A stretch of 46,650 nucleotides of DNA from a virus (IMGVR_UViG_3300037258_001222:1-46650), one strand, 5' to 3'; positions 3,130 through 46,650 are shown, counted from the stretch's first letter. Notes: a model not told the origin generated them from the sequence alone. Program-made: numbers and translations.

Positions 3130-3480
3130 ATGAGGCCCATATTCCCATCGGTCAAAAAGCGGCTCCTCACGGAGAAGCGGATGAAGCAGTGCGCGCTGAG
3201 TCAGCTGCAACGCATATATGAACTCTGTGAAGGCCGCATTACCTGGCATCACCCGTGGATATATGCTGGCCGACAGATCGGCGAGACCTGGGCCATCGTG
3301 CCCGCTTGCGAGCATCATCATCGTATGGTCGAGAGCGAGCCGGCGGTGAAAGCCGCATTCGAGGCCGCCTCATTATTACTGGCTACCGAAGAAGATTTGG
3401 CCTGCTACCCGCGCAAGCCGTGGGGGCGGATCAAAAAGGCACTCGGCTTACAAGCCGATACTAAGACTAAGAGCGTATGA
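3130..3480 (+). CDS. HNH-like endonuclease-domain protein
   Basis: 116 residues starting 2 nt after the RHH stop. The middle holds CEGRITWHHPWIYAGRQI followed about 10 residues later by PACEHHH. That pattern (Cys, His-His, aromatic, then C-x-HHH) resembles a small phage HNH-type family; I infer metal binding and nuclease activity. It ends ADTKTKSV, and its stop overlaps the next start (ATGA). Recombination or replication is the likeliest setting. Confidence 0.6.
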   Translation: MRPIFPSVKKRLLTEKRMKQCALSQLQRIYELCEGRITWHHPWIYAGRQIGETWAIVPACEHHHRMVESEPAVKAAFEAASLLLATEEDLACYPRKPWGRIKKALGLQADTKTKSV

Positions 3481-4094
3481 AAATCCAAATCAAGAACCGC
3501 TGGTCAGGAAATGTATTGTTCGAGTGCGAAGCTGTTTCATTGAAGGCGGCAGTAGAGATGGCCATGGAGGCGGACGCCGACCTCACGGACGCCGACCTCA
3601 CGGACGCCAACCTCACGGGCGACGACCTCGCGGGCGCCGACCTCGCGGGCGCCAACCTCGCGGGCGCCGACCTCGCGGGCGCCGACCTCACGGGCGCCAA
3701 CCTCACGCGCGCCAACCTCGCGGGCGCCAACCTCGCGGGCGCCGACCTCACGGGCGCCAACCTCCGTGTCATAAAGCACGATGTTTGGGGTGTTCTTCTG
3801 CTCAACAAAAATGAAGTGCCGTATCTGCGGCAAGCCATTATAGACGGCAAGGTAGATGGCTCCGCATATTCCGGCGAGTGTTCCTGTCTCTGTGGCACGC
3901 TCGCAAAAGCGAAGGGCATAAACGACGGTAAAAGTCTCGCGATAGCTGATTCATCAAGCCCCGCCGAGCGGTTCTTTCTCGCGATTAAGAGAGGCGATAC
4001 GCCTGAGACGAATCCGGTGTCAAAGATAGTGCTGGGGTGGATTGAGGAGTTTGAGACGCTAGTGGCCGATACTAAGACTAAGAGCCATGACTAA
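3477..4094 (+). CDS. pentapeptide-repeat protein
   Basis: 205 residues. After a short N-terminal domain (1-30), residues about 32-97 are about 13 consecutive A(D/N)L-type pentapeptides, predicting a right-handed quadrilateral beta-helix of roughly three turns. The C-terminal domain includes SGECSCLCGTLAKAKG and a conserved-looking KRGDTPETNP segment. Some pentapeptide proteins mimic DNA and bind gyrase, but this repeat is short and a gyrase role is not shown. It ends in TKTKSHD and overlaps the next gene by 8 nt. Confidence 0.8.
   Translation: MKIQIKNRWSGNVLFECEAVSLKAAVEMAMEADADLTDADLTDANLTGDDLAGADLAGANLAGADLAGADLTGANLTRANLAGANLAGADLTGANLRVIKHDVWGVLLLNKNEVPYLRQAIIDGKVDGSAYSGECSCLCGTLAKAKGINDGKSLAIADSSSPAERFFLAIKRGDTPETNPVSKIVLGWIEEFETLVADTKTKSHD
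3569..3763 (+). repeat. 15-bp tandem repeat (about 13 units)
   Basis: In-frame repetition of GC(G/C)GGCGCC(A/G)ACCTC-like 15-mers with very few differences between copies encodes the pentapeptide repeats. The low divergence suggests recent expansion by slippage or recombination. Confidence 0.85.
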
Positions 4095-19282: not shown

Positions 19283-20389
19283 TCAGAAATGAATGTCCCG
19301 GTACTGCCCGAGGATATCGAGGTCCTCCTGGTCGAGCGTGTTGCGCCAGGTCTCAGTGGCGTCCCCGACTCGTTCGCTCGACTTACCGGCCAGTCCACGC
19401 CGCTTGAAACGTCGCACCACAAGGTTCTCGCAGACGCTCGTGATGTCGCCCGGAAGCCAGTGCGTGTTGTGATCCTCGGGATTGTTCCAGTTGACCGGAT
19501 AGCCGCCCGTGTAGGTGGCTCGGATCATGTTGTTATAGAGGCGCGGAAGGACGCCATAAACGCGCACCATGCCGGAGGGATACCAGACGAGGCCGGAGAC
19601 GGGATCGGTGCGCGGGTTGACCAGCTCGTATTGATCGGCGATGAAGTCGGTCCAGTTCGGGTTGGATGGGGTTCCGGCGCGCCACTGGAAGTTCGATATG
19701 GAGAAGACCGGCGTATTACGCAGCATGAGGAAGCTCTGCCGCGGGCTCTCGATGGAATACACCTCGTCGGTGTAGGTCTGCTGCACGAAGGAGAACCGCC
19801 CGCACTGATTGTTGATGTAGTTGGTGGCGTAGTTAATCATGCGGACCAGCACGCCGTCGTAGGCGGTTGGCTGGTCGGTGACGGTCAAGGTCTGGCCGGT
19901 TTGGGTCGAGGTGGCGGCCTGTGAGAGCGTGATCTCGGTCGCGCTTACGACGGCCGTAATCGTCGTGCCGACGGGGATATAGGTGCCGGTGATCACTTGC
20001 CCGACGCGGATCGTCTTGCCGGTCGGCACGGTGATGCCGGTTACGTCGGTTGAGTTGTTGGTGAGCGACGCTCCGGTAAGCGAGACGGTGAGGTTGGGGT
20101 CAAAGAGGAGGTCCTTGACCCGCTGCAAGGTTGTGAGGGCGTAAGGCGAGACCTGATCGGCACCCACGATGACGACGGAAGGATTATTGGCGGGCGTGTA
20201 GTCGGCAAGCAGCTCCCCGGCGGAGTAGCTGTTGACGGTGGTGATGTCGGCCCCGGCGATCGCGTAATCGTTGCCGACGCCAGGGGTAAGCCGAACACCC
20301 GCGCCATAGAGAGTTACAGTGCCAGCCGCAGGCGTGTTTTCCAGCGTCCAGCTTGTGCCATCTCCCGAGACGATTTCGTTTTGGATCAT
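19283..20389 (-). CDS. head-tail connector / adaptor protein with extra beta domain
   Basis: 368 residues. The C-terminal half (from about residue 180: YDGVLVRMINYATNYINNQCGRFSF, then ATYTGGYP and DITSVCENLVVRRFKRRG) fits gp6-like head-tail adaptors. The N-terminal half carries two beta-sandwich-like segments (TVTLYGAGVRLTPGV and VPTGKTIRVGQVITGT). The added domain makes it larger than usual adaptors. It overlaps the HNH gene stop by 4 nt. Confidence 0.6.
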   Translation of the reverse strand: MIQNEIVSGDGTSWTLENTPAAGTVTLYGAGVRLTPGVGNDYAIAGADITTVNSYSAGELLADYTPANNPSVVIVGADQVSPYALTTLQRVKDLLFDPNLTVSLTGASLTNNSTDVTGITVPTGKTIRVGQVITGTYIPVGTTITAVVSATEITLSQAATSTQTGQTLTVTDQPTAYDGVLVRMINYATNYINNQCGRFSFVQQTYTDEVYSIESPRQSFLMLRNTPVFSISNFQWRAGTPSNPNWTDFIADQYELVNPRTDPVSGLVWYPSGMVRVYGVLPRLYNNMIRATYTGGYPVNWNNPEDHNTHWLPGDITSVCENLVVRRFKRRGLAGKSSERVGDATETWRNTLDQEDLDILGQYRDIHF

Positions 20390-20943
20390 AGGGCGTAGGC
20401 TTCGGCCTTGCGACCGTAGGTTGGCGTCTTTGTATGGCAGTCATGGCAGAGTGTGCGCCCGTTATCCGTGTCGAAGCGAAGCTCGGTGAAGAAGGCAAAA
20501 GGTTTGATGTGATCTGCTTCCAGATTGCCGCCGCGATTATCACCACACTCGATGCATGCATAGCCGTCGCGCTCAAAGACTGCTTGGCGCCATTCTTGGT
20601 ATTCCAAGGAATGGCGGATGCGTTCGTGCTCGGGTGTAATGCCGCCCTTCCACGCGCTGCCCTTTGCGCCGACAAAGCGCCCGATATTTGCGAGGCGGCA
20701 TTTTAGTTTCGTCTCCTCGGGTTGGGGCTTTCCTTTATTCCAAGGGATATGACCTTCCTTGAATCCTCCCCCGAGGTAGATGCTTTTGCCCTTATTCCAA
20801 GGAATTGCGTGAGGTCGTGGCCCGCGCAATTTTGCGCGATGTTCGTCGGTAAATCTGCGGCCTTTTTGGGCGTCACTTATTTTTCGTCTGTGTTCCTCGG
20901 ACATGAAGCCCGCTGGCATTTTGTATTTTTTTTGTGGCTCCAT
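20386..20943 (-). CDS. HNH homing endonuclease with NUMOD3 motifs
   Basis: 185 residues from 20943. The N-terminal half has DNA-binding NUMOD3-like repeats: EEHRRKISDAQKGR, TDEHRAKL, then HIPWNKGKPQPEETKLK. The C-terminal HNH core has YACIECGDNRGGNLEADHIKPF, then LCHDCH. Homing endonucleases with this layout nick specific phage DNA. The gene is inserted between a minor capsid-like gene and the connector gene, behind a strong hairpin (20949-20991). Confidence 0.9.
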   Translation of the reverse strand: MEPQKKYKMPAGFMSEEHRRKISDAQKGRRFTDEHRAKLRGPRPHAIPWNKGKSIYLGGGFKEGHIPWNKGKPQPEETKLKCRLANIGRFVGAKGSAWKGGITPEHERIRHSLEYQEWRQAVFERDGYACIECGDNRGGNLEADHIKPFAFFTELRFDTDNGRTLCHDCHTKTPTYGRKAEAYAL

Positions 20944-20948
20944 ATATT

Positions 20949-20991
20949 CGTTCGTTTCGTGGCCCCACGAGTTGAGGCCACGCGACGAACG
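20949..20991 (-). repeat. 43-nt stem-loop just upstream of homing endonuclease ATG
   Basis: Outer arms CGTTCGT/ACGAACG and inner arms CGTGGCC/GGCCACG, separated by 2-nt internal loops. It ends 5 nt before the start codon. Confidence 0.7.
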
Positions 20992-21007
20992 TTCAAATAC
21001 TATTCTA

Positions 21008-21520
21008 TCAAGTATTTGAAGTTGTCGAACGCACGGGTAGCTGCGCACCGTTGCCGGTCGCGCCGATGAACTCGGCGTAGGCCAAGATCGCCGGGGTCGT
21101 GCCGCTCGTGAAAGCGGGCGTGAGACCGATCGCGAGATAGCGCTTGCGGCCGCCAGCGCTCGCGGTCGGTTCCGTATTGGAGCCGACAGATTGAAGGTTG
21201 ATGCCTTCAACGCGAGCATAGGCATCCTGGGCCGCCGTGTGGACATTCAGCGTGCCGCCGATGGCGGTGCCGGTGTTGTCCTTGGCCGCCACGAAGGTGC
21301 TGTTGTCGTCGGACTCCAAAAGAGCCCAAGCGACGGTCGCCGCAGTCGGGGACCCGGATGCGATCTCAGCGCGGACATGCACCATGAGCGACTCAAGGCC
21401 AGCGAGCGCGGTGTCGAGACCGTCGGAATCGACCTCGGTGCTGCCGGTGAGCGATTGGATCGCTACCGAGGTGGCAGCGGCGTTCTCGTGATACACGTCA
21501 TCGTATGGATTGAAACGCAT
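21008..21520 (-). CDS. minor capsid or decoration-like protein
   Basis: 170 residues, mainly beta with Ala/Thr/Ser. It contains ALLESDDNSTFVAA and RKRYLAIGLTPAF, reminiscent of the phage Bbp16-like family found just after the major capsid gene. No membrane segment. Likely a capsid surface or inner protein. Confidence 0.55.
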   Translation of the reverse strand: MRFNPYDDVYHENAAATSVAIQSLTGSTEVDSDGLDTALAGLESLMVHVRAEIASGSPTAATVAWALLESDDNSTFVAAKDNTGTAIGGTLNVHTAAQDAYARVEGINLQSVGSNTEPTASAGGRKRYLAIGLTPAFTSGTTPAILAYAEFIGATGNGAQLPVRSTTSNT

Positions 21521-32386: not shown

Positions 32387-32638
32387 ATGATCCCACCCGC
32401 GGCTTCGGGCGAACACATGGATGAACGACCGGACAAACCATCACCGCAATACAAATACTTCATTCAATATTATCGACAGGACCAAAATCCGGACATTGAC
32501 GAGCCGTACTGGTGGTACTTTACGTCTGAGGCAGATGCTCTAGCGAGTGGATGGGAAAATTGGCATGATGAGCGAGGAAGTAAATATAAAGCGATCCAGC
32601 TCTATTGCGGGAATGTCCAAATAAGGAATTTGCGTTAG
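32387..32638 (+). CDS. orphan plus-strand protein (83 aa), moron-like
   Basis: The only plus-strand gene in the structural region. It has a strong Shine-Dalgarno (AGAGGTGA) about 6 nt before the ATG. An aromatic-rich protein (YKYFIQYYRQDQ, PYWWYFTS), unrecognised. It converges on the terminase gene and overlaps its stop codon by 4 nt. Context and independent signals suggest an acquired moron. Confidence 0.6.
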   Translation: MIPPAASGEHMDERPDKPSPQYKYFIQYYRQDQNPDIDEPYWWYFTSEADALASGWENWHDERGSKYKAIQLYCGNVQIRNLR

Positions 32639-34089
32639 ATATATTGAACCTTCTGCTCCTCCACCCCATCATTGATGACGCCCAAAATCAAATATACGAG
32701 AGCGTCCACCGCATCGTCATGCTTCTCGCTGCCGAAGCCGAGTAACTGGGTGAGGAGCTGCTCGCATCCCGTCCGGGGAAACTTAACGACGCCGAGCTTG
32801 ATGTACCGCGCCGCGACGCGCAGTCGAGCCCGCTTGTCTTTGATCGGGTGCATGGCTTGCACGCTGAAGGCCCGGCGCTCCATTTCCTCGATCGCCGCAG
32901 CTTGATAGGCCACCGATTCAACGAAGAATTCGCAGCTCATTGCGGTCGAGCGCCGCACGTTATCGAGCGCGTCCATCGTGTCGGTGAAGGTCATGCGCCG
33001 GATCACGGGATGCGGCTGCACATAGATTTCCGTCTTGCCGGAGGGCCATGCCACTTCACCCGTTACGATGGCGGTGTAGTCGGCGCTCTCCTTCGTGCTG
33101 ATGGCTAGGTCGACCCCGTGGGCGAGGTAATTGCCGTCATCGAACGGCGGATCGTCGTAGTACGTGATGTCTTCCGGCAGAACGTCCTGTCCCTCCTCCG
33201 GCACGACCTGCAACAGCATCTCGCGGCGGAAGGCGATATCGCCCAGCTCTTGGCGCTTTGTGTCGATGGCCGCTTGCGTCGGATATTTTGCCTTCCACGT
33301 GCAGCGCTCAATTTCGGGCTCGTTGTCGTTCGCCGCACGTAGCAGCGGAAACTCCAGTACGCGGAAAATGCCGGTCTGCTTGAGCCGCGCCATAAGTCCG
33401 TCGGTATGCAGCCAGTTGCCGATCACGACCGCGCGGCCGTCGTGCTCGTCGAGCGACGGCAGCACGTTGCCGCGGAACCATCGGTCGCTCTTGTCGCGGT
33501 TCTCCTGCGTGCGCACCCAGTCGAGGTCTTCCACGTCGTCGGCGATGATGAGCGAGGGCCGATGCTGGCGGTGCTTGATGCCGCGTATCTTCTGGCCGCG
33601 CGAGCGCGAGAGGACGCGCACGCCGTTGTCGAGGACCGCGTTCATCGTCTGCCAGTCCTCGTCGCTTTCGAGCGTCGGCTCGGGACGCGGGTCGTCTATC
33701 TTGCGGTATTTCAGGTGGCCGTAATCGCGCAGAATGAGGTCGTTGTTGCGCAGCTCGTGCTGTACGGAGGCGGCGTTGATGCTGGCCTGCCCGCGAGTGT
33801 CGGCAAGCATGATGATGAAGGGATAGCGGTTTGGGTGTTCGAGCGCGGCCCAGAGGATGAGCGCGAGTGAGGCCATCGTCGATTTCGCGCAGCCGCGGAA
33901 GCCGATGATCTCAAGGCGCTTGGCGTCGTGATCCTGCAAGGCGCCGGCCATCTCGTCGAAGAAGTCGGAGAGGTCGGCCGGGAAGTGGTGGGGTAGGTAG
34001 GTGAGACAGAAGCCCTTGAGGGTCTTGGCTGCGGCGCGCCGGATTTCCGGGTCGTCTACTAGGCGTTCAAGTTGTTGAAGTTCGTCCAT
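32635..34089 (-). CDS. terL: terminase large subunit
   Basis: 484 residues. Walker A GFRGCAKST (63-71), Walker B LIIADDVED (180-188), then an RNase H-like nuclease domain beginning near residue 325 (AHGVDLAIS) with the late acidic pair in KHDDAVDAL. It pumps phage DNA into the prohead at the portal and cuts concatemers. Start overlaps the metallopeptidase gene by 31 nt. No Shine-Dalgarno. Confidence 0.95.
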   Translation of the reverse strand: MDELQQLERLVDDPEIRRAAAKTLKGFCLTYLPHHFPADLSDFFDEMAGALQDHDAKRLEIIGFRGCAKSTMASLALILWAALEHPNRYPFIIMLADTRGQASINAASVQHELRNNDLILRDYGHLKYRKIDDPRPEPTLESDEDWQTMNAVLDNGVRVLSRSRGQKIRGIKHRQHRPSLIIADDVEDLDWVRTQENRDKSDRWFRGNVLPSLDEHDGRAVVIGNWLHTDGLMARLKQTGIFRVLEFPLLRAANDNEPEIERCTWKAKYPTQAAIDTKRQELGDIAFRREMLLQVVPEEGQDVLPEDITYYDDPPFDDGNYLAHGVDLAISTKESADYTAIVTGEVAWPSGKTEIYVQPHPVIRRMTFTDTMDALDNVRRSTAMSCEFFVESVAYQAAAIEEMERRAFSVQAMHPIKDKRARLRVAARYIKLGVVKFPRTGCEQLLTQLLGFGSEKHDDAVDALVYLILGVINDGVEEQKVQYI

Positions 34090-37084: not shown

Positions 37085-37288
37085 TTAATCTCGTTCGCGC
37101 TCGATGCGCCGGTAGAGGTGGTGGAGCACCTGGTCGGCTTCGCTTAGCGAAAGCGGCGTGCGCCGGATGGAATACCGAAGGCCAGGGAATGCCTTACGGA
37201 AGCTCTCCGCGCCAAGCTCAGCAGCTTCATTGGTCGGATAGTCGATAGCGAATTCCCGCCATGCCATAGCGAGATAGACGCGGTACAT
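37085..37288 (-). CDS. hypothetical protein (67 aa)
   Basis: The ATG at 37288 overlaps the DUF932 stop (TGATG); an upstream ATG at 37297 is an alternative. MYRVYLAMAWREFAIDYPTN and a basic helical C-terminus. Unrecognised. The 130 bp downstream to the terminator contains an open frame without a usual start codon. Confidence 0.5.
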   Translation of the reverse strand: MYRVYLAMAWREFAIDYPTNEAAELGAESFRKAFPGLRYSIRRTPLSLSEADQVLHHLYRRIERERD

Positions 37289-37998
37289 CAGGCGCACACG
37301 GCGTCGATCACTCGGTGTAAGGTGCTCGTTGCCTGCGGGTTCTCGGCGACCCTGCCTTCGAGGGCGAAGGTGACGGCGTTGAAGAGCCGCCAGACGTTGC
37401 GCTGCTCCTTGAAGTCATCGAAGGACGGTTCGTCCCATTCCCGCGCGACCGTGGGGATGCGCTGGACGTTGATGACGCCCTCGCGATACAGGCGCATGAC
37501 CGCGTGGTCGGCCATCTGGTCGGACAACGCGGTGTGCCGGTAGTGCTCGAAGGTGCGGGCTTGGCGCTCGCGCTGGATGGCGAGTGGCTCGATGATCTCC
37601 ATCAATAGGCCCGGCAGTTCGCGCTTCGCGTTCGCCGTGTGGCGGCGCCGGATAACGTGATCGCCGATGAAGCTCAGATTGGAGCAGACGAACACCTGGC
37701 TGCCGAAGCTGACGCCGATGGGAAACGCCTTGTCGTGCGAATTGCGCAGACCGAGCGTGTCGGTGTAGCCGGTGTACGGGCTCCGAAGCGTCATCAGGCC
37801 GAAGTAGCGGGCGGCGTCGTGGTCGAGGGCGTGGTGCTCTTCGACGATCTCATGGCCGAACATGCCGAGGGTCGAGCGCACGAGGTCGACGAGCCTATAG
37901 TGCTCGATCGGAACGTGCGTCGCTGTCGCCGGCGGGGTATCGAGTTGGCGGAGGGCGTCATACGCTACCAAGTCGCCGCCGCTGTGAAGGTTAAGCAT
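37288..37998 (-). CDS. DUF932-family protein
   Basis: 236 residues from the ATG at 37998, which has GGGAGA 7 nt upstream. DUF932 features: RSPYTGYTDTLGLRNSHDKAFPIGVSFGSQVFVCSNLSF, a conserved core with HD and VCSN motifs, then a helical half. The family is frequent on plasmids, ICEs and phages; function unknown, suggested links with replication or modification. It is followed by a terminator beyond the next genes. Confidence 0.75.
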   Translation of the reverse strand: MLNLHSGGDLVAYDALRQLDTPPATATHVPIEHYRLVDLVRSTLGMFGHEIVEEHHALDHDAARYFGLMTLRSPYTGYTDTLGLRNSHDKAFPIGVSFGSQVFVCSNLSFIGDHVIRRRHTANAKRELPGLLMEIIEPLAIQRERQARTFEHYRHTALSDQMADHAVMRLYREGVINVQRIPTVAREWDEPSFDDFKEQRNVWRLFNAVTFALEGRVAENPQATSTLHRVIDAVCA

Positions 37999-38037
37999 TC
38001 GTATCTCCCAAATAGCAGGACTCCTCTGTAATTTTAG

Positions 38038-38066
38038 CACAAAAGAAAGGCCGCCTTCGGGCGGCC
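38038..38066 (-). terminator. intrinsic terminator with UUCG-type loop (bidirectional)
   Basis: GGCCGCC-TTCG-GGCGGCC stem (38049-38066). The minus strand continues TTTCTTTT. It follows the 44-aa gene. Confidence 0.8.
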
Positions 38067-38913: not shown

Positions 38914-39186
38914 TTATAGATCAAACAGTGTCGGTTCGACGAGCCTGCCGGCCGCCTTACGCTGGCTCACCGGCCGGGCGTCCTCTTTGACTGGGAACAA
39001 GGTCGGCTCGGGCTGTCGTTCCCGCTTGGTCTGCTCCTTGTGCAGCTCGCGCATGTAGCGCCAGTAGAGCTTGACCGCGCGGTCGCAGGGAAGGCCGTCG
39101 AGCACGACCCGACCATGATAGGTCTCGTCTTGCTCGATGAGCGCGTAGCGGTCGCCGTCGTTGCGGACGTAATAGCCGGTGATCAT
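38914..39186 (-). CDS. hypothetical protein with two EPTLF motifs (90 aa)
   Basis: An N-terminal beta region (MITGYYVRNDGDRYALIEQD), a helical middle (AVKLYWRYMRELHKEQ), then a tail with EPTLFPV and, at the very C-terminus, EPTLFDL. These resemble the short QLxLF-type sliding-clamp binding motif, though the match is partial. GGAGG Shine-Dalgarno present. It overlaps the primase-like gene. Confidence 0.55.
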   Translation of the reverse strand: MITGYYVRNDGDRYALIEQDETYHGRVVLDGLPCDRAVKLYWRYMRELHKEQTKRERQPEPTLFPVKEDARPVSQRKAAGRLVEPTLFDL

Positions 39187-39758
39187 GCCGGCCTCCGAAG
39201 CGGAACGACCTTCTGCTCGATGCCGTGCCAGCGCGGGGGCAGCTTGGCGATCTCCTCGACGCCGACGTATCCGGCCAGCTCGCCGGACGGGAGGCGGATC
39301 GGGATGGCGACCAAGCCGCGCATGATGCCGCGCGCGCAGTAGCCGATGCCGAGGGCCTTGGCGTCCTCGGGCTCGAAGCCGAGGGCGACGACGGCTGCGT
39401 GATCGTGCTCAAGCTCAAGGGGCTTGAGGCCGGAACTGTCCCCATTCGGGGAAACTTGTCCTGGGGATTGTTCCTTCTTAGAAGGATGGTCCCGGTCGAG
39501 CCACGCCGCCGCTTCCTTGGCTTCGGATTTGCGGATGTGCGCGGTGAGGGCGATGAGATCACCGCCGACATGGGCCGCCCAGCAGTACCAGACTTGCTTG
39601 CTGGGAGTGATGACAAGGGCTCGTTCGCCACCGCTTGCGCATGCCGGGCACGGACCTCGAAAGGTCTGCCCCGATTGCTTTAACGTAAGGCCAAGTAGGT
39701 CGGCTGTCTTCTCGATAGTGAGCCGCTGTTTCAAGGCGGCGAAGTCCACATAAGGCAT
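39183..39758 (-). CDS. truncated DnaG-like (CHC2 zinc-finger) primase protein
   Basis: 191 residues. The zinc domain (about 1-100) has FRGPCPACASGGERALVITPSKQVWYCWAAHVGGDLIAL, the primase zinc-ribbon pattern with a divergent second pair (C-W-A-A-H). Residues about 130-185 resemble the start of the DnaG polymerase domain (RGLVAIPIRLPSGELAGYVG). The catalytic TOPRIM part is missing, so primer synthesis is unlikely unless another subunit supplies it. GGAGG Shine-Dalgarno. Confidence 0.7.
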   Translation of the reverse strand: MPYVDFAALKQRLTIEKTADLLGLTLKQSGQTFRGPCPACASGGERALVITPSKQVWYCWAAHVGGDLIALTAHIRKSEAKEAAAWLDRDHPSKKEQSPGQVSPNGDSSGLKPLELEHDHAAVVALGFEPEDAKALGIGYCARGIMRGLVAIPIRLPSGELAGYVGVEEIAKLPPRWHGIEQKVVPLRRPA

Positions 39759-40014: not shown

Positions 40015-40028
40015 GCGCCGTTTCGCTT
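40003..40028 (+). terminator. intrinsic terminator of 62-aa gene
   Basis: GGCGCC-GATTA-GGCGCC then GTTTCGCTTT, overlapping the gene end. Confidence 0.65.
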
Positions 40029-40945
40029 TATCCTATCTGCACCTGGCTCCCGTCAGCGGCGATCCACGGCTCGTTGAAGATGCCGTACATGATCGGCGGC
40101 ACATGCCAGGATGGTCCGAAATAGGAGACGCTTTTGAAAAGAAAATGCTTTGCGTACTGCGGCGCGCCGAGCGTGTGGTAGTAGTCGAGCATGTGCTGGA
40201 GGTGCAGCGCGTTGGTGGTGATGGTTAGCACATTGAAGGCTGGGATGCCGAAATGTGCGCGGTAGGTCCGGTTGTCGAGAATATCAAGGTAACCGGAGAG
40301 TTTGCGGCCATAGGCGGTCTTGGCCGTGTCGCTGTTGATGCTTTCGGTGCGGCGGTCGATTTCAACAGCATAGAACGCTGGCTTCTCCCCCTGGATGACA
40401 AAGAGGTTGTCGGGAACGACGTGCCGGCCCTGAGCAGGGATAGCAAGCGGATTAGCCGCCTTCTTCGTCGTCTCCGGGCATTTCGCGTGATTGATGATGG
40501 TCGCCGTGTCGGCGAACTTGAGGCCTTTGCGCTCTGCGGCGAGCTGGATAGATGCCGCGCAGCAGGCGCCCATGAGCCTATGAATGAAAGGGTCAGTGCG
40601 CTGGTTGAGGCGGATGCTCCGTTCGGCCAGGGCGACGAGCGCGCGCGGCGTGAGGTCGTAGATGTTCGGCTGGAACTTTCCGTCGATCGAGGCCCACTGC
40701 TGCTCCGGTCGGTAGAGGTAGGGCGCGTCGCCCGTGGTGCCGTGGGTGAGCTTCGATACCTTGCGCTTCAGCGAGACAAGCCCCTTGGCCGCGTCCTTGG
40801 TGAACTCATAGAGATAGTGAACGGGCAGCGGGCCGTGCCGGTTGATCGCCTGGAATAAGAGGATGTCGCGCGGCGTGAGGCGGATAAAGCCGTTGCGCGG
40901 CTGCGGCGGAGCGAAGCGGAGGCGGCGGCCAAGAGCATCGAGCAT
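40028..40945 (-). CDS. replication-relaxation family protein
   Basis: 305 residues. Residues about 20-100 form a winged-helix region (LTPRDILLFQAI, LYEFTKDAAKGLVSLKRKVSKL). Residues 175-215 carry the nuclease-like motif VPDNLFVIQGEKPAFYAVEIDRRTES with D179, E195 and D197, followed by Lys and Tyr. Members of this family (Replic_Relax) serve plasmid replication initiation or relaxation. Here it accompanies two coupling-type ATPases and an inverted-repeat locus, so a nicking or initiation role for mobilisation is the best inference. Confidence 0.75.
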   Translation of the reverse strand: MLDALGRRLRFAPPQPRNGFIRLTPRDILLFQAINRHGPLPVHYLYEFTKDAAKGLVSLKRKVSKLTHGTTGDAPYLYRPEQQWASIDGKFQPNIYDLTPRALVALAERSIRLNQRTDPFIHRLMGACCAASIQLAAERKGLKFADTATIINHAKCPETTKKAANPLAIPAQGRHVVPDNLFVIQGEKPAFYAVEIDRRTESINSDTAKTAYGRKLSGYLDILDNRTYRAHFGIPAFNVLTITTNALHLQHMLDYYHTLGAPQYAKHFLFKSVSYFGPSWHVPPIMYGIFNEPWIAADGSQVQIG

Positions 40946-41045
40946 ACATGTCTGATAGTCCCGCTACCGGCCGATTTCACCGGCCAGTATGGCGCGCGGC
41001 TGGCACTGTGGCTTATGTCCGTGCGCTATGCACATACCTGTGATT

Positions 41046-43250
41046 TTAGCATATCCGCCATGCGTCATCCTCTGCCGCATCCTTTCGATCTAGGAAATCA
41101 TCGATGTGGTCTTGCAGTTCGGCTGCCCGTTTGGCGTTCCCGCGACGGATTGCAAGTGCGAGCTGCGCATAGGCGTCCGCGAGTGCCAGGTCATCTTGCT
41201 GTGTCCACGGCCGCGTTTCTGGCGGGGGTTTTTTGGCCGTAGGGCCGGGACGCGGTGGTCGTTGCCGGTGGGTATGCTGCTGCCGCGCCCCGACACGCTC
41301 GCGATTCCTGCGCCGCATCTCCTCATACGCGGCCTCCGAAAGTCGCGGCTGCTTGTCTACTTCGTCGATCATGACTGAACATGATACGGCCTTTGGCGTC
41401 ACGTCCTGGATGTAGGTTGCGAAATGGTGGCGCGGTTGGTTGAGGACGAACTGTGGGTCGGTCCGCATCCACGTCGCGAGCGTCTTGGCGTCGTCGACTG
41501 ATACCCGAGAGGCCATGTGGATAGCCGGCTCGGTCGCAAGAGCCGCACGAAGGGATTGGCTGCATTCCTCTAGGTCGTGATGAGCAAGCACGCAGCCCAT
41601 CTTAAACTTGCGCGCATCGGTCAAAATATCCTTTGTTCGCGTGTCGAAATACTGGTTTGCTTCATCGACGAATAGAAATGCGGGTTTGCGACGCTCTTCA
41701 GGAATGGATGCTCGCTCGAAGATGGCTTGAAGGATGCGAGCGATAAACACGCGGCCATATAAAGCGCTATCCTGCTTCAAAAAATCCTGCGCCGTGTCGA
41801 TGAGGATGATCGCTCCATCGTTCAGAAGCTCATAAAAGTCGATCACGTTCTCTCTCGACGAGAACAGGCGGTCGAGCGTAGGGGTCTGCCGGACGCCCTG
41901 CAATCGATAGCGCAACTGGTCTTTGGTCTCCTTGAATTCACGGCTCCGATAGTCTCGACGGAAAAAATCGCGCTGCGCATCGGAAGCAAGGGTGACGGCC
42001 TGCTCGAACCACGCGGGCGGCTGCTCGGCCATGAGGTCAATAAGGTCTTGCAGAACGGCGTTGTCGCCGGTCGCCTCGGGGAGCATGAGGAGGAGGCGCG
42101 CGCAATATTCAAATAGGATGCCTTGCTTGCCAGTGAGGTCGAGCCCCATTCCCTCAAAAAGATAATCGAGCGTCTCAATCGCCGCCGTCGCCGCCTGCTC
42201 CTTCTCAAGATCGGAGTAGCGCCGAAGGCGCGAAGGGTTGAAGGCGAATATGTTGATGGCTGGCGGTGTGCGATCGCGGGGAGTTATGAGGACGAGCTTG
42301 TCGCGAATGTGCGGGAGATCGAGGCGGCTGACATAATCCACAAGGTCGTTGTGGCTATCGACGATCACGAGGGCAGGAGGATCGTCGGAAAGGATGTCGT
42401 GGAGTACAAGGCGTTTCAGTAGCGTCGTCTTCCCCGCCTTGTTGCCGCCGATGATGTGCATGTGGCTGAAGCGTTCTTCGTAGGCATATCGGAGTGAGAC
42501 TGGCTGGTGCAAGATCCGAGCGAATGGCGTATCGTCAAGAGTCTTCTCCGGGTCAACCTGATCTCTATGGTATTGCTGATTCCCATTTTTATCATAGCTC
42601 GCCACCCGGCTGAGGATAACTTCATACGGAGCTTGCAAAGCGCGCGGTCGTAAATCACCGTAGTTTGGATGTCCTTTTTCGGTCCAATCACCGCATCTGT
42701 TGAAGAAAATGATATCAACCATTTTCGGCACCGTCTGTGCCGGGTCGCGTAGACAAGAAATGAAGTGCGTGGAGAGTGGCGATGAAAACGACGTTCGTAT
42801 TTCCTTGGCGAGCAGAATGAGCGCATCAACGATGGTATTCGCGTGCTGATCAACGGTTTCGCTTCGTATCTTGTCCTTGTGGAGAGCACCTTTGGCCTCC
42901 TCTCCACGAATCAAATCGTCGATTGTCTCATAGAACAATGAAAGCCAGGGCTGCGCGGGTATGAAGAGGTCCACCGCTCTTTGGGCGCGTTGACGAACGA
43001 TCTCCGAAGGTTTGAGAGTTTGTTGTTCAGTCCTGCGTTCTTCAGGTGCAGCGGGAGGCGCTTGTGGGCTTGGTTGATCGGAAATCGATCGTGGGGTGGT
43101 GAAATATTCTTCCAACCATTCAAAACCATTTTGTAAAATGGCAGATATCCCCACTATGAATAGAACCGGGATTCCAATTAAGAGAACCACAAAGAACATT
43201 ATCTTGAGCCCGCCAGCTACAAGGAAGCCGATTAGGTCAAAAAACCACAT
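41046..43250 (-). CDS. VirD4/HerA-like membrane-anchored DNA-transfer ATPase
   Basis: 734 residues. A hydrophobic N-terminus with two spans (about 6-25 and 26-40). Walker A GGNKAGKT (268-275), Walker B-like ALVIVDSHND (near 296), later acidic FLFVDEANQYFD (about 545) and a QPRHHFA region. The tail is Pro/Arg-rich and disordered, then a helical segment. Architecture fits a hexameric coupling ATPase. Start overlaps the preceding ATPase gene. No other secretion-channel genes appear in the window. Confidence 0.8.
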   Translation of the reverse strand: MWFFDLIGFLVAGGLKIMFFVVLLIGIPVLFIVGISAILQNGFEWLEEYFTTPRSISDQPSPQAPPAAPEERRTEQQTLKPSEIVRQRAQRAVDLFIPAQPWLSLFYETIDDLIRGEEAKGALHKDKIRSETVDQHANTIVDALILLAKEIRTSFSSPLSTHFISCLRDPAQTVPKMVDIIFFNRCGDWTEKGHPNYGDLRPRALQAPYEVILSRVASYDKNGNQQYHRDQVDPEKTLDDTPFARILHQPVSLRYAYEERFSHMHIIGGNKAGKTTLLKRLVLHDILSDDPPALVIVDSHNDLVDYVSRLDLPHIRDKLVLITPRDRTPPAINIFAFNPSRLRRYSDLEKEQAATAAIETLDYLFEGMGLDLTGKQGILFEYCARLLLMLPEATGDNAVLQDLIDLMAEQPPAWFEQAVTLASDAQRDFFRRDYRSREFKETKDQLRYRLQGVRQTPTLDRLFSSRENVIDFYELLNDGAIILIDTAQDFLKQDSALYGRVFIARILQAIFERASIPEERRKPAFLFVDEANQYFDTRTKDILTDARKFKMGCVLAHHDLEECSQSLRAALATEPAIHMASRVSVDDAKTLATWMRTDPQFVLNQPRHHFATYIQDVTPKAVSCSVMIDEVDKQPRLSEAAYEEMRRRNRERVGARQQHTHRQRPPRPGPTAKKPPPETRPWTQQDDLALADAYAQLALAIRRGNAKRAAELQDHIDDFLDRKDAAEDDAWRIC

Positions 43251-44379
43251 CGAAGATAGCCCTGATTTGTGATTCTACTTTTTCTCTCGGCCGCCCATAC
43301 CTGGCCTGCATCCGTTTGAGGACGGACGCCAGCATACCCGTTTTCGCCCAGGCAGGTGGAGCGGTTTTTATCCAAATGGGCGAGCTTGGCACGCCGCGTT
43401 CGTTCCGGCGCATGATCGCTTCGTAGTTCTGAGTGTCGGTCAGCGTGGCGGCATTGGCAACTTCGATGCCCAGCTCTCCGGCGAGAAGCTTCGCATCTTG
43501 GCTCCCGACTCTGAACACGACGAGGGTCCCGATATTGCCGAGGACGGCCTGGCGCAGCCCCTCGGGGAGTTGCCCGAGATACTGGTTCGCAAGGCAAAGG
43601 GTCAGACCCCACTTGCGGCTTTCCGAGAGAATCGTGCCGAAGCTGTCGGTGGCGAACGACTGGAACTCGTCCGCATACAGCGTGTACGGGATGCGCTCGC
43701 TCTCGGGAAGCGTGACGCGCCGCGCGGTGGCCTGGGCAATGGCCGTGACGAAAAGGGCACCAAGCAGATGCGCGGGTTCCTGGCCGATGCCGGAGAGGTT
43801 GGCGATGAAGGTTTTACCGTTCACGATGTCATCGAACTTGAGCACCGATTTCTGGCAGAGCACGGCGCGGATGGTCGGGTTGGCGCAAAACTGCCCGACC
43901 TTGTTCTGTATCGGCGCGACGGCTTCGTTCTTGAAGCGTTCAGAATATCCTGCGAACTCATGCTCCCAGTACCAATGGATGAAGGGGTCGCCGCAGCGCT
44001 GCAAGCAGTGCGCCCGGTAACGGTCGTCGGCGAGGACGCGCGGCAGATGCAGCAGCGTCGCGCGGTTATCGATGAGGAGCCGCAGCGCGTTGTAGAGGAT
44101 GTATTCCATCCGCGGTCCCCAGCTCTCCGCCCAGATGTGTTTGAACGCCGAGACGATTTCGGACGCGGTAAGAGCGTCGCCGTTCTCAAGCGGGTTGAAG
44201 CCGAGCGGGATGGAATGGTGGAAGTAGATGGTGCGGTTCGGATCGCAGGCGTCCGCTACTTGGTTGGCGAGGTCGCCGTGCGGGTCGAGCAAAGCGAAGG
44301 AGTGGTCGCGCGTCATCAAGGACGCGAGCATGGTGCTCTTGCCGGTGCCGCTGCGTCCTATGAGATACGTGTGGGCCAT
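43237..44379 (-). CDS. second VirD4/TraG-like ATPase
   Basis: 380 residues from the ATG at 44379. An open frame continues upstream to 44574, but that part is unlike the family and runs into the inverted repeat; MHDTTS at 44496 is another possible start. Walker A GRSGTGKST (residues 8-16), then LLDPHGD (Walker B-like) and YADEFQSFATDSF, with SRKWGLTLCLANQYLGQL as the sensor region. These match TraM-recognition-type coupling ATPases. No membrane anchor from this start. It forms an operon with the larger ATPase. Confidence 0.75.
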   Translation of the reverse strand: MAHTYLIGRSGTGKSTMLASLMTRDHSFALLDPHGDLANQVADACDPNRTIYFHHSIPLGFNPLENGDALTASEIVSAFKHIWAESWGPRMEYILYNALRLLIDNRATLLHLPRVLADDRYRAHCLQRCGDPFIHWYWEHEFAGYSERFKNEAVAPIQNKVGQFCANPTIRAVLCQKSVLKFDDIVNGKTFIANLSGIGQEPAHLLGALFVTAIAQATARRVTLPESERIPYTLYADEFQSFATDSFGTILSESRKWGLTLCLANQYLGQLPEGLRQAVLGNIGTLVVFRVGSQDAKLLAGELGIEVANAATLTDTQNYEAIMRRNERGVPSSPIWIKTAPPAWAKTGMLASVLKRMQARYGRPREKVESQIRAIFDVVF

Positions 44380-44544
44380 GCGTCGGCAGCGGAGCCGTAG
44401 CGAGAGGTCGTGCCTTTGACATGCGCTCGGTGGCCGCTGCCGGCGGCTGTCTCTCACAAGGTGAAGTATAAACACGACAGGGCTGGTGGTGTCGTGCATC
44501 GGGTGGGCGATCCGTCCTTTATGTCCGATAGGAAGAGTGCCGCT

Positions 44545-44679
44545 CACTGTGCGTCGTTGAAGCGATAGCGCCACGACCCCAGCCGTTCTGCCCCGAGCGG
44601 ATACGCGAGGTGGTCTGCGGATAGCGAAAGCTAACCGACAGAACGGATGGGGTCGTGGCGTGAAGCCCGACGCACAGTG
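44545..44679. repeat. large nested inverted repeat (candidate oriT, origin or structured RNA)
   Basis: A perfect 12-bp outer pair (44545-44556 with 44668-44679), an internal loop, a 22-bp pair with one mismatch (44569-44590 with 44639-44660), and a central loop with a CGG-A-TAGC-GAAA-GCTA-A-CCG hairpin (44618-44637). It lies in the gene-free interval between the 129-aa gene and the coupling ATPases. Confidence 0.75.
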
Positions 44680-44703
44680 ATGCGGAAGCGTAGGTGAATG
44701 CCT

Positions 44704-44769: not shown

Positions 44770-44794
44770 AAGAACAGCGCCCGTTAGGGCGCTG
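44770..44794 (-). terminator. hairpin terminator over the 129-aa gene stop
   Basis: CAGCGCCC-GTTA-GGGCGCTG stem (44775-44794) with the stop codon in its loop and TTCTT after it on the minus strand. The short T-run makes it moderate. Confidence 0.55.
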
Positions 44795-45173
44795 CATAGG
44801 TTCCGTCATTGAGGGTAAGTTTGCCCGCTTTCTTCAAAGCGGAGAGAGCATTGGCGACCGATTGCGAGCCGGATTTGTCGCCATCGGCGATGCCGAGGAT
44901 GGCGCGAACGTCGGCGGGCGATGATGCCTTGGCCTTTACGATGTCGTATACCTGATCGCGGATGCCGGAGCGCCGGCCGCCGGTTGTTGTCCGCTGCCGG
45001 GGTTGAACGGCTGGCTTGCCCGTCTTGGCGGCTTCGTAGGCGTCGATCGCCGCGAGTTCGCGGTTGATGTCTGTGAGCTTGGTTTCAAGCTCGTGCTGCT
45101 GGCCGGAAATCGTCTCGCGCTCGCGGTGAAGGCGCTCGCGTTCGTGTGTGATGAAGTCGGCGAACGATTGCAT
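44784..45173 (-). CDS. coiled-coil plus winged-helix-like protein (129 aa)
   Basis: Residues 1-45 form an amphipathic coiled coil (HERERLHRERETISGQQHEL). A basic linker (PRQRTTTGGRRSG) leads to a helix-turn-helix-like C-terminus: IRDQVYDIVKAKASSPADVRAILGI, then SVANALSALKKAGKL. This resembles a MarR/wHTH half-site binder, perhaps acting on the adjacent iteron array. AGGAGAG Shine-Dalgarno. Confidence 0.6.
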   Translation of the reverse strand: MQSFADFITHERERLHRERETISGQQHELETKLTDINRELAAIDAYEAAKTGKPAVQPRQRTTTGGRRSGIRDQVYDIVKAKASSPADVRAILGIADGDKSGSQSVANALSALKKAGKLTLNDGTYAAP

Positions 45174-45237: not shown

Positions 45238-45450
45238 CTAGTTGGAGGATTTTCCTCCCGATTTGGGAAGCCGAGCGTTGCGCTCGTCAGCACGCGCGAG
45301 CATCCACTCGTTTACCTCTTCCTCGATCCAAAACACGCGGAAGCCCACGCGCACCCGCAATGGGAACTTGTTGACCTCTTCGAGCCTTGAGACTTGAGTT
45401 GGCGACAGGCAAATGCGGTCACGGAGCTGCTTCTTAGTCAGGTAACGCAT
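45238..45450 (-). CDS. AlpA/excisionase-like DNA-binding protein (70 aa)
   Basis: MRYLTKKQLRDRICLSPTQV, then SRLEEVNKFPLRVRVGFRVFWIEEEVNEWML. This MerR-like winged helix is typical of AlpA-type excision or activation proteins beside tyrosine integrases. It should direct integrase toward excision or activate its promoter. GGGAGA Shine-Dalgarno lies in the 3' arm of the hairpin 45458-45472. Confidence 0.8.
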   Translation of the reverse strand: MRYLTKKQLRDRICLSPTQVSRLEEVNKFPLRVRVGFRVFWIEEEVNEWMLARADERNARLPKSGGKSSN

Positions 45451-45519: not shown

Positions 45520-46650
45520 TCAGGTTTGGATGAGACGCGAAAGGTGTTGCTCCCATGCGTCTATCGCTGCGCGCATCTCCGCTTGGTATTCGTAGACGTT
45601 GTAGACGCGAGCGATCTGCGACTGGGTGCCGCCCGAGACGTGGTTCAAGAGCTTCTCGACGACGATCTGCGGCACTCCGAGCGCCGCCATGCCAGATGAG
45701 ACCGTGCGGCGTAGGTCATGGATCGTCCAGTCGTAAACGCCAAGGTCTTTATCGAGTTGGGCCTTTGGCTTACCCCAGCCGTTGAAGACGGTCGCGGGCT
45801 TTCCTTGGACCCGTTCCCGAGCAGCCGGAAAGAAGTAGGTATCGGATGTGTTGGGTGTCGTCTCAAGGATGCGCCGCGCGATAAGCCCGATGGGGAAGGC
45901 GTGGGTGCGCCCGTTCTTTGTGATGTGGGCGGGGATCGTGACAAGCCCGTTCTTGAGCCAGGAACGCTCCAGGCGGGCGATTTCTCCCCTACGCTGGCCG
46001 GTAAGGAGGCAAAGGGCGATGATCCGGTGGAAATGATTTTGAGGGGCAAATACCAGCCTACAGAGGCCGTGTAGCTCTTGATCGGACAGCGCCCGCTCGC
46101 GCGGTCGAGAATTTGATGGCGGTTCCATGTCCGCCATCGGGCTGCGGTCTATGCAGTGCTGCGAGACGCAGAAGCGGAAGAAGGCCCGGCCGGCGGCAAA
46201 GGCGTGGTGGCGCTCGGCCGGCGGCAGCTTCTTGAGCCTTCCGCCGATGTCGTGCGGTGTGATTTGGCCGACGCTCGACCGGCCGTAGGGATAGTGCTTG
46301 GTCAGCAGACGACGGTAATCTGCCAGGGTGCGGGGCCTCAGCGTCTTCTCCCGCTCGGTGAGGAAGGCATCGCGCGCTTCCTCGAACGCAACGTGCTTCG
46401 GGCGCACGCGGCCGAGCGTCTTCTGTGCGAGGATGCGCCTGGCTTCCGAGCGGGCTTCGGAGAGCGTTAGGCCGCCGGGGCCATACTTGCCGATCGTCTG
46501 GCGCCGGCCGGAGCCGATGAGGACGATGAAGGATTTTGCGCCGCCGGGGTAGACACGTAAACCGAACCCGGCGGTCGCGTCATCCCAGATGGTGAACGCT
46601 GCGGCGGCAGGCTTGGCCGCCCGGATCGCAAGCTCGGAAAGTTGAGGCAC
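45520..46650 (-). CDS. int: tyrosine-type integrase (DUF4102/P4-like)
   Basis: 376 residues shown; the frame opens with GTG at the window edge, so the true start could lie beyond it. The N-terminal arm-binding domain (PQLSELAIRAAKP...GLRVYPGGAKSF) is followed by a core-binding domain (about 85-180). The catalytic domain has Arg in TGQRRGEI (220-221), Lys in THITKNG-type beta hairpin (near 245), HDLRR (311-315), LLNH (334-337) and Tyr in ARVYNVYEY (350-355). It integrates the element, typically at a tRNA gene, presumably beyond the window. No att repeat is visible. Confidence 0.9.
   Translation of the reverse strand: MPQLSELAIRAAKPAAAAFTIWDDATAGFGLRVYPGGAKSFIVLIGSGRRQTIGKYGPGGLTLSEARSEARRILAQKTLGRVRPKHVAFEEARDAFLTEREKTLRPRTLADYRRLLTKHYPYGRSSVGQITPHDIGGRLKKLPPAERHHAFAAGRAFFRFCVSQHCIDRSPMADMEPPSNSRPRERALSDQELHGLCRLVFAPQNHFHRIIALCLLTGQRRGEIARLERSWLKNGLVTIPAHITKNGRTHAFPIGLIARRILETTPNTSDTYFFPAARERVQGKPATVFNGWGKPKAQLDKDLGVYDWTIHDLRRTVSSGMAALGVPQIVVEKLLNHVSGGTQSQIARVYNVYEYQAEMRAAIDAWEQHLSRLIQT

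Follow-up and report, generated by a model that had tools for sequence, protein, structure and literature searches.

A long hairpin, two predicted DNA-pump ATPases and a predicted relaxase-like nuclease lie together between 37 and 46.6 kb of a viral genome, in a region that is the phage's own early block and not a passenger. Nucleases and DNA-pump motors of this kind normally serve the movement of plasmids between cells. Based on comparisons across related phages, a host-flanked prophage and chromosomal elements, we tentatively propose that the module processes the phage's own DNA or starts its replication, and the data suggest that plasmid-transfer machinery has here been turned into the phages' own DNA-handling system.

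An early block shared by a phage family

The window, i.e. the whole stretch of DNA analysed, is a single IMG/VR virus entry of provirus type with 46,650 bases, and its genes are nearly all on the minus strand. The start codon of the integrase coincides with the last base, so the record was probably cut at a gene border as a provirus. From the right end, the genes read integrase, AlpA, a 129-residue protein, ATP1, ATP2, RR, a CHC2 protein, small conserved proteins and DUF932. Downstream of this early block follow terL, portal, head, tail and tape-measure genes, and then Erf and YqaJ/RecE at the far end. The features considered here are:

45520-46650, minus strand: tyrosine integrase (Arm-DNA-bind_3 and Phage_integrase; Pfam and PHROG matches)
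45238-45450, minus strand: AlpA-type excisionase/regulator (PF05930, 26.6 bits, above cut-off)
44784-45173, minus strand: 129-residue protein (same slot kept in phage G410)
44696-44775, no strand: cluster of five TATGCC/GGCATA hexamers by the hairpin, candidate protein-binding repeats
44540-44687, minus strand: long hairpin, candidate oriT, origin or cis site (fold z-scores and covarying homologues)
43237-44379, minus strand: ATP1, predicted short VirD4/TraD-like P-loop ATPase (380 residues from the ATG at 44379)
41046-43250, minus strand: ATP2, predicted VirD4-like P-loop ATPase with N-terminal hydrophobic segments (profile match, Walker motifs)
40028-40945, minus strand: RR, Replic_Relax/MOB_C-like protein (PF13814 match, active-site residues, AlphaFold models)
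39183-39758, minus strand: CHC2 zinc-finger (DnaG-type) protein, "prim" (PF01807, 28.2 bits, above cut-off)
38914-39186, minus strand: 90-residue block protein (homologues in L026, L029 and G416)
37288-38040, minus strand: DUF932 protein, the final conserved early-block gene (PF06067)
32635-34089, minus strand: terminase large subunit, first late-region marker (phrog_38, E=1e-64)

A first-pass annotation of the window had described a mobilisation module beside a complete phage head and tail set. The late region (terL, portal, head protease, major head protein, tape measure, minor tail and tail proteins) is complete enough for a tailed phage, and by this gene set it is that of a tailed phage. 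The AlpA and integrase genes named in that annotation are present at 45238-45450 and 45520-46650, and so is its primase-like protein at 39183-39758, which matches the CHC2 zinc finger only. Elsewhere in the window, a tandem 45-bp repeat array (3571-3764) lies within a pentapeptide-repeat gene (3477-4094), one of the few on the plus strand. An HNH endonuclease gene is found in the head gene region (20386-21246); related genes occupy other positions in G005, G008, G009, G413 and G416, and these shifting positions suggest a mobile homing endonuclease.

The conserved order is int-(AlpA)-ATP2-RR-CHC2 protein-DUF932-late genes; the hairpin and ATP1 are either part of the block or lie as a pair at the phage's far end. 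About ten independent viral records, whose late modules are of several unrelated types, have ATP2-RR-prim-DUF932 in this order, and the longer series int-(AlpA)-(129 aa)-(ATP1)-ATP2-RR-prim-DUF932 is found in full in G410 and almost in full in G002, G412, G415 and G418. An integrase homologue occupies the same slot in G002, G410, G412, G415, G418 and a Hyphomicrobiales prophage; AlpA is also found in G410 and G412 and, weakly, in G002; the CHC2 protein is invariably downstream of RR in related phages, and DUF932 homologues of 54-63% identity are located downstream of prim in many records. Relatives of the window terL in viral contigs are 67-87% identical (81-87% in most related records). Their records keep prim-DUF932-...-terL-portal, and the longer-reaching ones have RR and ATP2 upstream. 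A DUF932 search yielded ten further records; eight have RR, and it is missing from a 22-kb fragment and from a distant Salinibacter phage. ATP2-RR was found wherever the block slot is covered by a record. Terminase types differ, being phrog_38 in the window and the unrelated phrog_2 in G413, G418 and the Hyphomicrobiales prophage. G413 (48,194 bp), whose record is closed by an end repeat of 127 bp, includes the block.

The prophage, located in a Hyphomicrobiales MAG contig (G015:C56), extends from an integrase at 60.3 kb to about a tRNA-Gly(ccc) at 96.2 kb and contains terL, a head protein and the block, with host transporter genes beyond the tRNA. A search for its att ends gave only a 13-bp repeat. 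The window terL had no match in 385 alphaproteobacterial genomes. We also note that the start of a G413 protein (L080:18538-19071) resembles, by eye, the cell-cycle regulator GcrA, which fits an alphaproteobacterial host, and that the isolated Salinibacter phages M8CRM-1, M8CC-19 and M31CC-1 carry a DUF932 protein of 30% identity, with no detectable RR in M8CRM-1 (record G417).

Since the same junction recurs in independent records and in a host-flanked prophage, the block is part of the phage. The search of other genomes for this junction, suggested in the first-pass annotation, thus found it in independent viral records and in the Hyphomicrobiales prophage, and the modules are not separate in other genomes. 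Two options raised earlier, a chimeric junction at about 36.6-37 kb and an integrative mobilisable element adjacent to a prophage, are excluded by the recurrence of the block-to-late order across records and in the prophage. We accordingly give virtually no weight to an assembly chimera, or to a mobilisable element that lies by chance beside a prophage: trimming of the record at a gene border would be compatible with either, but the junction is present in many independent records, one of them end-repeat-closed, and in a chromosome, which refutes both. An integrase and a relaxase without mating-pair genes, as in integrative mobilisable elements, are present, but a discrete element separable from the phage genes was not seen. 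Identity as a phage-plasmid was likewise rejected, as the window encodes a tyrosine integrase, a relative is inserted next to tRNA-Gly, and the ParA, ParM and Rep families are unmatched among the window proteins scanned.

The predicted nuclease and the paired ATPases

The presence of a Replic_Relax protein is confirmed, RR matching PF13814 with E=3.2e-5 and 24.6 bits, just under the gathering cut-off of 25.3. Residues D179, E195, D197, K215 and Y219 are invariant in all 14 aligned RR proteins. AlphaFold models reach a pLDDT of 85 for the whole protein and 91 for the C-terminal domain alone. In structural comparisons to the model, the N-terminus (residues 22-109) corresponds to a MarR-like winged helix (best Z 10.9). 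A Foldseek search with whole RR gave nothing under E=0.001, and structural re-alignment of the whole protein was dominated by winged helices, so the nuclease domain was modelled alone. Its best matches, at moderate Z, are mostly restriction-type PD-(D/E)XK nucleases (PaqCI 8.6, SdaI 7.3, an XisH-type protein 7.3 and the nickase BspD6I 6.6); they are mutually consistent and agree with the conserved residues. RR is predicted to combine a winged helix with a PD-(D/E)XK nuclease. MOB_C relaxases have this architecture; in pAD1 TraX, for example, a winged helix at the N-terminus occurs together with a PD-(D/E)XK active site (PMC12857230). The earlier term relaxase-like therefore holds in the MOB_C sense and not in the HUH sense; an HUH relaxase was rejected, the predicted fold being PD-(D/E)XK.

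The active site is degraded in two phages, RR of G412 being without Glu and Lys and RR of G413 without Lys. Given these losses, nuclease activity is, as judged from the residues, not universal among phage RRs. On the RR tree, phage RRs form one deep group (support 86/72, bootstrap values being rough), separate from the lineages of chromosomal elements, with one change as compared to 8.1 in shuffles. A single deep phage group is as expected of an old, retained gene. By eye, RR-like proteins with a winged helix and a PD...E motif also follow a VirD4/HerA-like ATPase in a B. subtilis plasmid (L053:11632-12519) and in Microcystis phage Mwe-JY31 (L054:10523-11422); neither matches the RR profile.

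The tandem VirD4/HerA-like ATPases reported before are indeed encoded on the minus strand, with intact Walker motifs and VirD4/TrwB matches. ATP1 scores above the TrwB_AAD_bind cut-off (22.1 versus 20.5 bits) and matches TraG-D_C (E=7.5e-4). It carries Walker A GRSGTGKS and Walker B LYADEF, is without a membrane segment, and is 41-46% identical to stand-alone ATPases of alphaproteobacterial loci; as a query against viral contigs, it found no match. ATP2 stays below the TrwB_AAD_bind cut-off (E=0.0034) and has Walker A GGNKAGKT, Walker B FLFVDEA and two N-terminal hydrophobic segments, of a type detected in 8 of 15 homologues in a crude scan. It adjoins RR in phages and chromosomal elements alike. 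Both proteins are predicted to be VirD4-type P-loop pumps.

Four viral records encode a P-loop-less ATP1 relative of 256-288 residues (G002:43989-44765, G008:35228-36025, G409:41723-42493 and G413:22433-23299; loci taken: L039-L046, L071-L073 and L080-L082), and in G412 it is in pieces. Profile comparison relates it to ATP1 with a probability of 96.6% (E=5e-10). These relatives are well conserved among themselves, and intact and P-loop-less versions alternate between related phages. Judging by the missing P-loop, motor function of ATP1 is not universal in these phages. The 129-residue protein has no match in Pfam, PHROG or NCBIfam; by eye, it consists of a coiled coil and a winged helix, and it is possibly a relaxosome accessory protein. 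In agreement with the earlier statement that mating-pair genes are absent, profile searches of ten phage records, the window and nine relatives, gave no VirB4 family match.

Both ATPases match the PADLOC mad8/HerA models weakly, and the RR nuclease domain matches, among many nucleases, a HerA-DUF assembly (Z 6.7). These similarities would be in line with a HerA-nuclease-like system that the phage carries for defence or superinfection exclusion. We consider this very unlikely, as the fixed position in the early block, the universal presence and the hairpin argue against optional cargo, and RR itself is without a PADLOC match.

The hairpin and its distribution

The oriT-like repeat claimed at the outset corresponds to a significant hairpin, but at 44540-44687, just outside the interval 40028-44379 assigned to the module. 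This 148-nt hairpin upstream of ATP1 is probably the most informative part of the system. It has inner arms at 44569-44590/44639-44660 and outer arms at 44544-44556/44668-44680, and a DNA fold z of -9.9 (0 of 200 shuffles). The window has one inverted repeat of this strength, whereas 40 dinucleotide shuffles gave none. A scan for long inverted repeats detected hairpins of the same kind in phages (G001, G002, G008, G410, G413, G415 and G418) and in chromosomal loci (L002, L005, L006, L007, L010 and L013). Across the set, the length ranges from 150 to 290 nt and a CGAC core is kept in the 5' arm.

As MAFFT misaligned the hairpins, pairs were read from a CGAC-anchored alignment combined with RNAfold pairs. 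The inner stem of eight phages comprises 126 Watson-Crick, no G-T and two unpaired combinations, a G-T count that is biased because the hairpin finder favours Watson-Crick arms, and most positions vary in sequence. The outer stem, which played no part in finding the hairpins, has about 93 Watson-Crick pairs versus 2 G-T. Pairing kept in this manner, with G-T near absent, suggests selection on a DNA hairpin rather than on RNA. The hairpin may instead act as RNA: its RNA fold is very stable (z -9.8), and a precedent exists in sgm-sRNA, which is essential for SGI1 mobilisation (PMC9299015). This is clearly unlikely, however, considering that G-U pairs are nearly absent from both stems and that the hairpin has no Rfam match.

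The hairpin goes with ATP1. In phages with ATP1 at their far end (G001, G415 and the Hyphomicrobiales prophage), the hairpin is there too, upstream of ATP1. Among loci chosen by RR alone, it is present upstream of ATP1 in three of the five testable loci with ATP1 (L098, L103 and L104), as opposed to none of the eight without. The hexamer TATGCC/GGCATA has 24 copies in the window, five of which fall within 100 bases by the hairpin, the densest cluster of the window; by eye, such repeats were not seen beside the hairpin of G410. The pAD1 relaxase TraX binds direct repeats away from its nick site (PMC12857230). The hairpin is a candidate oriT, origin or cis site of the block.

The ATP1-ATP2-RR triad is also found with an integrase and the hairpin in alphaproteobacterial integrative elements, RR being detected in 7 of 385 sampled alphaproteobacterial genomes (E < 1e-20). 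A strict version of the chromosomal hairpin motif, allowing at most one mismatch, gave two copies in the 385 genomes, both in G014 with its two RR elements; with two mismatches, matches were at background level. The elements carry defence cargo, namely Avs2 (L005:5120-9667), an Avs2-like gene (L011:16976-21037), an LmuB/PtuA-like gene (L010:6411-8879) and a conflict-type nucleotidyltransferase (L005:11329-13014). No phage head or tail genes were recognised among the element proteins scanned; one L013 protein has a Peptidase_S74 domain, which occurs on tail spikes. One element further encodes an aGPT-Pplase (alpha-glutamyl/putrescinyl thymine pyrophosphorylase, also with an ADDT match; L006:4691-6585) beside a thymidylate-synthase-like gene, i.e. 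DNA base hypermodification enzymes. In the Hyphomicrobiales contig, two more RR elements lie upstream of the prophage (G015:C56:36500-102804; L098, L099, L106 and L107), and tRNA-Gly(ccc) also adjoins an RR element in G014 (L104).

The chromosomal hairpin-ATP1-ATP2-RR elements could be satellites of these phages, with the hairpin serving as a shared packaging or replication signal. The hairpin and genes are in common, the contig with the prophage holds two more RR elements upstream of it, beside tRNA-Gly(ccc), and defence cargo is known from satellites. Even so, we regard this as highly improbable: chromosomal and phage hairpins differ in sequence, the RR lineages are separate, and a scan of a few element proteins revealed no gene for capsid remodelling or packaging.

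Proposed function and relation to known systems

We propose, with less than firm confidence, that the module serves the phage's own DNA through the following steps. RR would recognise the hairpin and/or the adjoining repeats and nick one strand in the hairpin region. The ATP1 and ATP2 motors, membrane-anchored via ATP2, would then move DNA from the nick. The outcome would most likely be the start of strand-displacement replication or the processing of the excised phage genome, using host polymerase and helicase, with the CHC2 protein helping in priming. In effect, the module would act like a relaxosome and coupling protein built into the phage cycle, and may still retain an ancestral ability to be transferred by way of a helper channel. 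Use for the phage's own DNA is weighted most because the block is universal where its slot is covered and sits in the usual position of replication genes, and because no DnaB helicase was found in ten related records, in a search whose positive control was detected.

Both functions named in the first-pass annotation, a mobilisation unit on a phage and an ATPase pair that handles the phage's DNA, still stand, and both could be true. The latter is favoured since ATP2-RR is universally kept, the late modules differ and no other replication gene is recognised. In a true mobilisation unit, the hairpin would be the oriT, RR a MOB_C relaxase and ATP2 (with ATP1) the coupling protein on a helper type IV channel, so that the prophage also conjugates. 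This is the chief alternative, possible but doubtful. The domain architecture of RR equals that of MOB_C, a PD-(D/E)XK domain plus an N-terminal winged helix (PMC12857230), and streptococcal IMEs pair PF13814/MobC relaxases with VirD4 (PMC5357655). An Embleya plasmid has an ATPase beside Replic_Relax together with PrgI, another ATP-binding protein and NlpC/P60 genes. The same direction is indicated by the membrane segments in ATP2, by the lack of VirB4 in the ten phage records, which a mobilisable element would also show, and by integrative elements that contain the same genes along with defence cargo and in some cases stand in tandem with the prophage. Yet a mobilisation unit should be dispensable and patchy in the phages, whereas ATP2-RR is present wherever the slot is covered; the hairpin matches no known oriT, and the RR active site is lost in two phages.

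Several observations also count against our preferred reading. The hydrophobic N terminus of ATP2 suits membrane transport better than replication, and the presence of hairpin-ATP1-ATP2-RR in chromosomal elements without recognised phage structural genes suggests that the role is not phage-specific. The active-site losses in G412 and G413 and the P-loop-less ATP1 relatives in four phages weigh against DNA handling as well. A single site may serve both replication and cell-to-cell transfer, as a folded-DNA origin nicked by a restriction-enzyme-type relaxase with paired VirD4-like pumps; we consider such dual use rather unlikely. If true, virions and conjugation would both be routes of spread for the phages and related defence islands.

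Proteins of the Replic_Relax/MOB_C type next to VirD4-like pumps occur here and there on plasmids, in integrative elements and in a few phages of Bacillus, for the most part known from annotation. In the present phage family, such a pair is fixed and comes with a recognisable cis element, which is common to chromosomal islands with Avs2 and other defence genes. Where this nuclease family cuts and how it religates DNA are poorly understood, and the 148-nt hairpin represents a concrete, testable substrate for it. The block further offers a case for testing directly where phage replication ends and conjugative DNA processing begins. In the open literature searched, where absence is weak evidence, we came across neither this hairpin nor a comparable block in phages of alphaproteobacteria. 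Pairs of a pump ATPase and Replic_Relax are already annotated in Bacillus phages and on plasmids; new are the covarying hairpin and a motor/nuclease block fixed in an alphaproteobacterial phage family.

By described architecture, the closest likeness is to MOB_C modules (CloDF13 MobC/MobB, pAD1 TraX, and PF13814/MobC with VirD4 in streptococcal IMEs), which also place a PD-(D/E)XK nuclease with an N-terminal winged helix beside a VirD4-type ATPase; the mobilisable members and the window block are alike without their own mating channel. In the CloDF13 record, the mob genes are sparsely annotated and their reading frames are broken. Unlike these modules, the block is part of a tailed-phage early block, has two ATPases, one of them sometimes without P-loop, and a covarying hairpin, and its RR falls just below the Pfam cut-off. 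Among phages, the Tyrovirus members Thrax1-5 encode a type IV secretion protein (gp17) and a replication-relaxation protein (gp18), and Bacillus phages Novomoskovsk, Bolokhovo and Pony have Replic_Relax and FtsK (PMC9703825, PMC9658697, PMC3853050, cited jointly for the Bacillus phages). They share with the window a pump ATPase near a Replic_Relax protein, but their pair has been interpreted as marking a plasmid-prophage region and is missing in some relatives, whereas the family described here is alphaproteobacterial, has the pair wherever the slot is covered, and adds a second ATPase and the hairpin. ICETh1 of Thermus, which is active in transjugation, is similarly without a type IV channel and combines a membrane-associated VirD4/HerA-type ATPase (TdtA) with a nuclease (NurA), both needed for DNA donation (PMC5365140); it differs in using NurA plus a type IIG enzyme, and has no phage genes and no known hairpin. 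SGI1 likewise relies on a non-canonical relaxase (MpsA/MpsB), an inverted-repeat oriT and an essential non-coding element upstream, sgm-sRNA, and is helper-dependent (PMC9299015), but its relaxase is of the tyrosine-recombinase type, its coupling protein comes from the helper, and its non-coding element is an RNA.
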